Source: Pseudomonas sp. GD03944 (lineage in GTDB: Bacteria > Pseudomonadota > Gammaproteobacteria > Pseudomonadales > Pseudomonadaceae). Taken from it: 64,000 nt of DNA. Shown here in pieces: positions 4,337 through 30,729 of this stretch. The DNA lies in NCBI RefSeq assembly GCF_029839275.1, contig NZ_JAOCAH010000001.1, positions 496,001 through 560,000 of the forward strand, given 5' to 3'. Position 1 is the stretch's first letter. Every line of letters starts with the position of its first letter. Both the position numbers and the translations under genes were made by a program. Below the pieces are notes generated by a model. It was not told where the DNA came from, ran no database searches, and saw only the letters and a program-made list of their open reading frames with translations.

Positions 4337-4459
4337 CGATCTCTGTCCTTGTCCGCGTAGCCGCGCGCTGCGGCCAGCCAAAAGGACTATGTACCACGCC
4401 CTCGAAACCCGAGCACCCATAGCCTTGGCCACAGGGGACGATACATAAAATCAATCGAC

Positions 4460-4484
4460 TAAATCGATCATGTTTATCGATTTA
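4460..4484. promoter_or_regulatory. perfect inverted repeat in AT-rich divergent promoter
   Basis: TAAATCGAT (4460-4468) and ATCGATTTA (4476-4484) form a perfect 9-base inverted repeat around a 7-base spacer. It lies in an AT-rich 230-base stretch between the divergent glutamine-synthetase-like gene and the repeat protein gene. Further ATCGA words occur near 4452, 4561 and 4571. This looks like an operator for a dimeric regulator, but which one is unknown. Confidence 0.4.
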
Positions 4485-4665
4485 AAAACACGCCAAAAGA
4501 CCCACTAAAAGCGGACACAAATAAATTCATGCCATTGATAAATAACAATAAAATCAACTATCGATCACGTCGATTATTACCATGCCTGATTCGAACTTCT
4601 TGATCGAAATATTCTGAGTAGTATGGGTCCCGTACTCACTTACCGCCCCCTACGAGGAGCCCGAC

Positions 4666-5220
4666 ATGAAAAAGCAGATTCTTACCAGCCTCATCCTGGC
4701 CAGCCTCTCCGCTACCGTTCTGGCTCTTCCGCAAGCCAGCACCCTGGCCGAAGGGGGCGCTGACCGCCTGATCGAGAAGCGTGTTGCCGAAGGTGGTTCC
4801 GACCGCCTGATCGAGAAGCGTGTTGCTGAAGGCGGTTCCGACCGCCTGATCGAGAAGCGTGTTGCAGAAGGCGGTTCCGACCGCCTGATCGAGAAGCGCG
4901 TTGCCGAGGGTGGCTCCGACCGCCTGATCGAGAAGCGCGTTGCCGAGGGTGGCTCCGACCGCCTGATCGAGAAGCGTGTTGCCGAGGGTGGCTCCGACCG
5001 CCTGATCGAGAAGCGTGTTGCCGAGGGTGGCTCCGACCGCCTGATCGAGAAGCGTGTTGCTGAAGGTGGTTCCGACCGCCTGATCGAGAAACGTATCGCC
5101 GAAGGTGGTTCCGACCGCCTGATCGAGAAACGTGTCGCCGAAGGTGGTTCCGACCGCCTGATCGAGAAGCGCGTTGCCGAAGGTGGTTCCGATCGCCTGA
5201 TCAACAGCCGCACCAGCTAA
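4666..5220 (+). CDS. secreted tandem-repeat protein (12 x 13 residues)
   Basis: This 184-residue protein has a signal peptide (Lys-Lys, then a hydrophobic core, with a likely cut after Ala20 in the ATVLA region or after Ala24). Twelve copies of the 13-residue unit AEGGSDRLIEKRV follow from residue 28. The first copy has Ala for Ser, one has Ile for Val, and the last ends in INSRTS. DNA copies differ by silent changes (gcc/gct/gca for Ala, ggt/ggc for Gly) while the protein stays the same, so the peptide itself is under selection. GAGGAG upstream of the ATG is a good ribosome site and a strong terminator follows. I recall similar Pseudomonas proteins being labelled phage infection protein, but I know of no proven role. 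Each unit ends in a dibasic Lys-Arg. Confidence 0.8.
   Translation: MKKQILTSLILASLSATVLALPQASTLAEGGADRLIEKRVAEGGSDRLIEKRVAEGGSDRLIEKRVAEGGSDRLIEKRVAEGGSDRLIEKRVAEGGSDRLIEKRVAEGGSDRLIEKRVAEGGSDRLIEKRVAEGGSDRLIEKRIAEGGSDRLIEKRVAEGGSDRLIEKRVAEGGSDRLINSRTS
4747..5214 (+). repeat. 39-bp coding tandem repeat, 12 copies
   Basis: Twelve consecutive 39-base units, each encoding A-E-G-G-S/A-D-R-L-I plus E-K-R-V/I (the last is N-S-R-T), fill the gene with no spacers. Neighbouring units differ mostly at third codon positions, which suggests expansion by unequal exchange followed by silent drift. Confidence 0.95.
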
Positions 5221-5235
5221 CGATCCGTCCCCACA

Positions 5236-5266
5236 AAAAAGGCGCCTTTCGGCGCCTTTTGTTTTT
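5236..5266. terminator. bidirectional Rho-independent terminator
   Basis: AAAAAGGCGCC and GGCGCCTTTT pair around a TTTC loop, with A-run and T-run flanks on both strands. It sits between the repeat protein gene and the convergent yceH and can serve both. Confidence 0.9.
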
Positions 5267-30193: not shown

Positions 30194-30270
30194 TGGCGGA
30201 CTCAGGAGGATTCGAACCTCCGACCGCTCGGTTCGTAGCCGAGTACTCTATCCAGCTGAGCTATGAGTCC
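30194..30270 (-). tRNA. tRNA-Arg (ACG), copy 3
   Basis: Cloverleaf on the minus strand with GGACTCA/TGAGTCC acceptor, anticodon loop CTACGAA (ACG, read as ICG) and encoded CCA. It is the last of three identical tandem copies in transcription order. Confidence 0.97.
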
Positions 30271-30342
30271 GTTTGGCGCTTTTAGACCAGATCACCACTG
30301 GTTGAAACAACATGACCCGCATCGCTGCAGTGCCATTCGATA

Positions 30343-30419
30343 TGGCGGACTCAGGAGGATTCGAACCTCCGACCGCTCGGTTCGTAGCCGAGTACTCTAT
30401 CCAGCTGAGCTATGAGTCC
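30343..30419 (-). tRNA. tRNA-Arg (ACG), copy 2
   Basis: Same 77-base sequence as its neighbours, including CCA. The unit length to the next copy is exactly 149 bases. Confidence 0.97.
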
Positions 30420-30491
30420 GTTTGGTGTTTTTAGACCAGATCACCGCTGGTTGAAACAAAATGGCTTGCACTGCTGCAAGCCATTTCAATA

Positions 30492-30568
30492 TGGCGGACT
30501 CAGGAGGATTCGAACCTCCGACCGCTCGGTTCGTAGCCGAGTACTCTATCCAGCTGAGCTATGAGTCC
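30492..30568 (-). tRNA. tRNA-Arg (ACG), copy 1
   Basis: Same 77-base sequence with encoded CCA; first Arg copy after tRNA-Ser in the transcript. Confidence 0.97.
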
Positions 30569-30638: not shown

Positions 30639-30729
30639 TGGCGGAGAAGGGGGGATTCGAACCCCCGACACCCTTTTGAGGTGTACTCCCTTAGCAGGGG
30701 AGCGCCTTCGGCCACTCGGCCACCTCTCC
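30639..30729 (-). tRNA. tRNA-Ser (GCT)
   Basis: A 91-base class II cloverleaf with long variable arm, acceptor GGAGAGG, anticodon loop CTGCTAA (GCT, reads AGC/AGU) and encoded CCA. It lies 62 bases downstream of csrA on the same strand, so csrA and the four tRNAs may share a transcript, as in other pseudomonads. Confidence 0.96.

Follow-up and report, generated by a model that had tools for sequence, protein, structure and literature searches.

Pseudomonas sp. GD03944 carries, in the 64,000-nucleotide stretch of DNA analysed here (the window), a gene for a 184-residue tandem-repeat protein at 4666-5220 (+ strand). Judging from the gene, its promoter and its relatives, this protein is probably one of a widespread group of envelope proteins that serve in the stress response and whose genes are preceded by a MexT site, and is probably not a precursor chopped into peptides. 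The MexT-type box is a new regulatory lead, absent from an earlier note on this DNA, which had described a secreted protein of twelve 13-residue repeats, each ending Lys-Arg, and had proposed that it could be a polyprotein yielding many copies of a short peptide.

A single-gene unit encodes twelve near-identical repeats

The ORF, which starts with ATG, was confirmed from the sequence to be a real gene. A ribosome-binding site, GAGGAG, was read at 4654-4659 (+), and an intrinsic terminator with a 10-bp stem and a T-rich tail was both computed and read at 5237-5260 (+). The gene is monocistronic, standing single with its own terminator between a divergent glutamine-synthetase-like gene (PF00120) on one flank and a convergent DUF480/YceH gene (PF04337) on the other. 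No full sigma-70 consensus was found at its promoter, as is expected for an activator-dependent promoter; the sequence TAGTAT at 4619-4624 (+), which is close to the TAACAT conserved in the relatives, is a possible -10 element. Rfam detected no RNA element close to the gene, and no Pfam family scored above cut-off for the protein.

The protein is built, in order, of a signal peptide, a six-residue lead, twelve 13-residue units and a two-residue tail. The Sec-type signal peptide (MKKQILTSLILASLSATVLA, residues 1-20, encoded at 4666-4725 on the + strand, likely cut between V-L-A and L) was read from the sequence and has similar counterparts in the relatives. It would export the protein to the periplasm, and this is as far as it carries the earlier description of the protein as secreted. 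The twelve units (consensus VAEGGSDRLIEKR) occupy 4744-5211 (+), as delimited by Tandem Repeats Finder and unit comparison. The program reported 39 bp x 11.7 copies with 94% matches and a score of 730 at 4747-5202, which is the strongest protein-coding tandem array within the window, and the twelve 13-residue repeats are thereby confirmed. Eleven units do end Glu-Lys-Arg, whereas the twelfth ends Asn-Ser-Arg. The differences between units are mostly silent, with a pS of 0.33 and a pN of 0.04 over all twelve units, and of 0.30 and 0.007 when the two end units are left out. The sequence of the repeat protein is therefore under selection, as the earlier note had concluded from the silent codon changes. 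Units 5-8 are almost identical in DNA, pointing to recent duplication or homogenisation. Elsewhere in the window, at 30194-30568 (-), tRNA-Arg(acg) genes stand three in tandem with a repeat period of 149 bp, adjoined by a tRNA-Ser(gct) gene at 30639-30729.

Relatives keep a short core while the rest of the unit changes

Six paralogs were found in the genome, at C1:500666 (the window gene), C1:574642, C1:576206, C3:115179, C6:87319 and C10:39434; AEGGxDR pattern matches in C5 and C8 were dropped, as their frames look non-coding. Within the genus, 95 of 99 genomes contain matches to the repeat family, with up to nine per genome. Matches were also found in other genera of the family Pseudomonadaceae (34 of 50 sampled genomes, 8 of 18 genera), and of 274 genomes sampled across the class, the Pseudomonas sp. 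GD03944 genome alone gave a match. The earlier note had proposed comparing copy number in related strains: across 69 genes it ranges from 3 to 13 units, with a period of mostly 13 residues and longer units of 14-16 residues in some relatives.

When 475 13-mers were compared, positions 2 (A) and 5 (G) were invariant, which is partly built in as the search motif demands both, and E3 (94%), D7 (99%), R8 (95%) and R13 (99%) were near-invariant. The conserved core of the unit is A-E-[G/D]-G-x-[D/E]-R. Position 12, where the Lys of the proposed Lys-Arg stands, was N in 41% of units, R in 37%, K in 13% and S in 8%. Six of the relatives are syntenic orthologs, with both neighbours kept in four (L055, L057, L058 and L062) and YceH kept in two (L053 and L056), and their units are unlike that of the window protein, for example VAEDGYDRTNINR, IAEDGFDRTGSNR and IAEDGADRTGVNR. 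In another genus, entire arrays read KAFD followed across the junction by VAEGGSDRT, the units ending Phe-Asp with a junction devoid of basic residues. Altogether, the comparisons indicate that the units of any one gene are kept alike by homogenisation and that the unit is replaced from ortholog to ortholog, with the A-E-[G/D]-G-x-[D/E]-R core persisting. In genus g9 (L181-L192), divergent relatives occur as pairs of adjacent genes; their units are longer (VADNGSERTIDRLHKQM...), and they lack a clear MexT box. The repeat peptide had no match in a literature search, and the name 'Phage infection protein', which we take to be one used for such proteins, led nowhere.

A MexT-type box precedes the gene and most of its relatives

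Alignment of the relatives' upstream regions revealed one strongly conserved element. The window gene is preceded, 106 bp upstream of its ATG, by a MexT-type box of the form ATCG-N5-GTCGAT-N4-ACCAT (ATCGATCACGTCGATTATTACCAT at 4560-4583, + strand), which was assigned by pattern match and conserved position and is the only clean match within the window. A longer form of the MexT box was reportedly given by Tian et al. 2009 as ATCA-N5-GTCGAT-N4-ACYAT; the window box departs from ATCA at one base, reading ATCG. With up to two mismatches allowed, the unrelaxed long pattern was found in 58 of 69 relatives versus 0 of 1380 mononucleotide shuffles, and the short published consensus ATCA(N)7CGAT (PMC11144800) was matched perfectly in 36 of 69 versus 6 of 1380, counts that are not independent because the relatives share ancestry. 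Counted from the ATG, the box of nearly all of the 58 starts at -103 to -115. It is present in most relatives from other genera; L048 and L063 are without it.

Over the 5.13-Mb genome, a relaxed pattern, searched with up to one mismatch allowed, gave 11 sites against one for the reversed-pattern control, the weakness of this count being that the pattern was slightly relaxed after the window site had been seen. Six of these 11 sites are exactly the promoters of the six paralogs, with the box about 105 bp upstream. The sole other genomic site with zero mismatches (L156 4753-4776, G000:C12:134752-134775) stands before an ArsR gene with an MFS transporter gene behind it, which is the layout of pyeR-pyeM, a MexT target operon (PMC7950407). 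A second, weaker site resembling the MexT box, with two mismatches, lies at 4445-4468 (-), towards the glutamine-synthetase-like gene.

MexT itself is encoded in the genome. A LysR gene at G000:C25:242270-243181, whose product matches PDB 6l33 'MexT protein' with an E of 4e-113, stands in a row of an oxidoreductase gene (mexS), the LysR regulator (mexT), mexE, mexF and an oprN-like outer-membrane gene, and MexE scores above its NCBIfam cut-off. The mexT-mexE intergenic region (L154 3685-3869) contains a relative of the box with an extra spacer base, ATCG-N6-ATCGAT. Among the 50 genomes of other genera, MexT was found in all 34 that bear the repeat family, the family was missing from all 13 that are MexT-less, and three have MexT without the family. 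Fisher's test gave p 1.6e-9 by genome and 0.004 by genus, values that overstate the association since genomes share ancestry and MexT-less genomes tend to be small. We consider it highly likely, from the promoters and the gene distribution, that the window gene is under MexT.

According to PMC3557286, PA4881 of P. aeruginosa is a tandem-repeat protein that MexT controls, and in PAO1 it is the most MexT-dependent gene (log2 -6.5; PMC12607905). A PA4881 mutant has no peroxide phenotype (PMC3557286). By this description, PA4881 is probably the same kind of protein as that of the window, whose gene carries a MexT-type box. The P. aeruginosa marker ecfX, searched by primer sequence, had no match in 398 genomes of the family and 25 of one genus.

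Composition, predicted structure and the PtrA core

Residues 22-184 bear 35 charges of each sign and are free of Cys, His, Met and aromatic residues; Arg accounts for 24 of these 163 residues. In 68 relatives the mean charged fraction is 0.40 and the mean net charge per residue -0.03. AlphaFold2 did not arrive at a confident fold for either of two divergent members (mean pLDDT 36 and 53); in both of these weak models each unit forms one strand, and the turns fall at EGG/EDG. A PDB profile search with the repeat protein returned weak matches only, the best of them to a designed protein (E 0.0003), and these were discounted as what a sequence of biased composition would match by chance. By eye, the units are like the RTX nonapeptide calcium-binding repeats in their short length, acidic residues and Gly-Gly-x-Asp-like turn, and unlike them in having a period of 13 rather than 9, no GGxGxDxUx match and no type I secretion genes.

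The window protein and PtrA-type proteins have in common an AEGGxDR core after a signal peptide. PtrA (PA2808) is likewise a small exported Pseudomonas protein with a Sec signal peptide, and it is linked to stress regulation. It is periplasmic and copper-induced (PMC8872213). PtrA-type proteins differ from the window protein in carrying the core AEGG[AGS]DR once, at the mature N-terminus, before a different C-terminal part; PtrA is under CopR/CzcR, whereas the window protein has the core twelve times, has no His, Cys or Met, and has a MexT-type box. The NCBIfam model NF041599 (PtrA N-terminal domain) reached 107 bits when summed over 12 stretches, the best of which covers positions 7-31 of 46, and a six-frame search of the genome with it gave no match at E 0.001. 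Membership of PtrA was rejected, as a short motif is counted twelve times here in place of the full, single-copy domain of 46 positions. The common core may reflect a distant kinship. The AEGG[AGS]DR core occurs in two stress regulons, those of copper and of MexT. Many genomes encode PtrA-type proteins in several copies (L065-L094), with up to 15 NF041599 matches in one of them (G030).

Alternative readings

The proposal of a polyprotein from which cleavage at Lys-Arg would free many copies of a short peptide draws on the eleven Lys-Arg ends, the near-identity of the units in protein and the junction Arg kept throughout nearly all of the 475 units; tandem units ending Lys-Arg are also what eukaryotic dibasic peptide precursors have, a likeness confined to the window protein. 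The dibasic site, however, is seen at 0 of 45 junctions in the six syntenic orthologs and at just 231 of 508 overall, some relatives (the KAFD arrays) have no basic residue there at all, and unit length is variable, so that Lys-Arg does not hold up as a processing site. Nor is the gene accompanied by processing machinery such as would go with a precursor: the linked protease or transporter that the earlier note had proposed to look for is missing, the neighbours being the glutamine-synthetase-like and DUF480/YceH genes, and no modifying enzyme or exporter is linked. The neighbours of the paralogs are variable. Homogenisation of the unit within genes and its swapping between orthologs, with the core kept, argue strongly against a precursor cut at Lys-Arg, and we hold this reading to be extremely improbable. 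Periplasmic storage of copper or some other metal, as suggested by the periplasmic, copper-induced PtrA, by its mature start and by the summed NF041599 score, is disfavoured because Cys, His and Met are missing from the mature window protein. Moreover, the NF041599 score is inflated by repetition of a short motif, the PtrA segment is single copy and the promoters of the repeat genes carry a MexT-type box. We regard metal storage as very unlikely.

Electrophiles, aldehydes and HOCl elicit a MexT response (PMC11144800; PMC7950407), and the protein could be a sacrificial scavenger, its Arg and Lys side chains consuming reactive carbonyls or hypochlorous acid during the stress that induces MexT; its richness in Arg, near-invariant at unit positions 8 and 13, would fit. 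Against this, Arg13 and Lys are missing in some genera, the usual scavenging groups (thiol and thioether) are absent, and the strict A-E-G-G conservation is not needed for scavenging, which leaves the idea unlikely. A protein released from the cell whose repeats form a surface for ligand binding or structure, as in an adhesin or a matrix protein, would agree with the signal peptide, the variable copy number and the multiple paralogs per genome, features that surface repeat proteins commonly have. Neither a surface anchor nor an autotransporter domain nor a linked secretion system was seen, though, and the mature window protein is without aromatic residues; the probability of this reading is low. 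About equally low is that of the box serving another LysR-type regulator of MexT-like specificity. The genome does encode three more MexT-like regulators (57-65% identity), and PA2206 also binds the PA4881 promoter (PMC3557286), but the box fits the MexT consensus, a perfect box precedes the pyeR-pyeM-like pair, and the family co-occurs with MexT.

Proposed function and significance

A pS far above pN, a conserved core and a junction that is not conserved argue for a function of the whole protein, and the protein likely acts intact. We favour, with somewhat less assurance, an intact, charge-balanced envelope protein free of Cys, His and Met that is induced by MexT in electrophile or redox stress. 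Going by the box and by published MexT biology, electrophile, disulphide or related stress would activate the LysR-type MexT, which would then bind the predicted box at 4560-4583 and turn on the single-gene unit. The signal peptide would route the product via Sec to the periplasm. The mature protein, which strings together A-E-[G/D]-G-x-[D/E]-R units and is rich in charges that cancel out overall, would most likely act whole in the envelope as a multivalent, flexible or simply folded protein while MexEF-OprN exports toxic compounds; its partner molecule there, the last step, is a guess. One might go further and see in this lineage-specific, charge-balanced, cysteine-free repeat class, with up to nine genes per genome, a bulk periplasmic layer that protects or scavenges under electrophile stress, which we think unlikely. 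We know of no MexT target with such a role.

Drug efflux, quorum sensing and virulence are all under MexT, and the most MexT-dependent gene of PAO1 encodes a hypothetical protein that has been called a tandem-repeat protein. For proteins of this kind there are now a conserved core, a promoter signature, a range (Pseudomonadaceae with MexT) and a natural copy-number series, and with these their function becomes testable.
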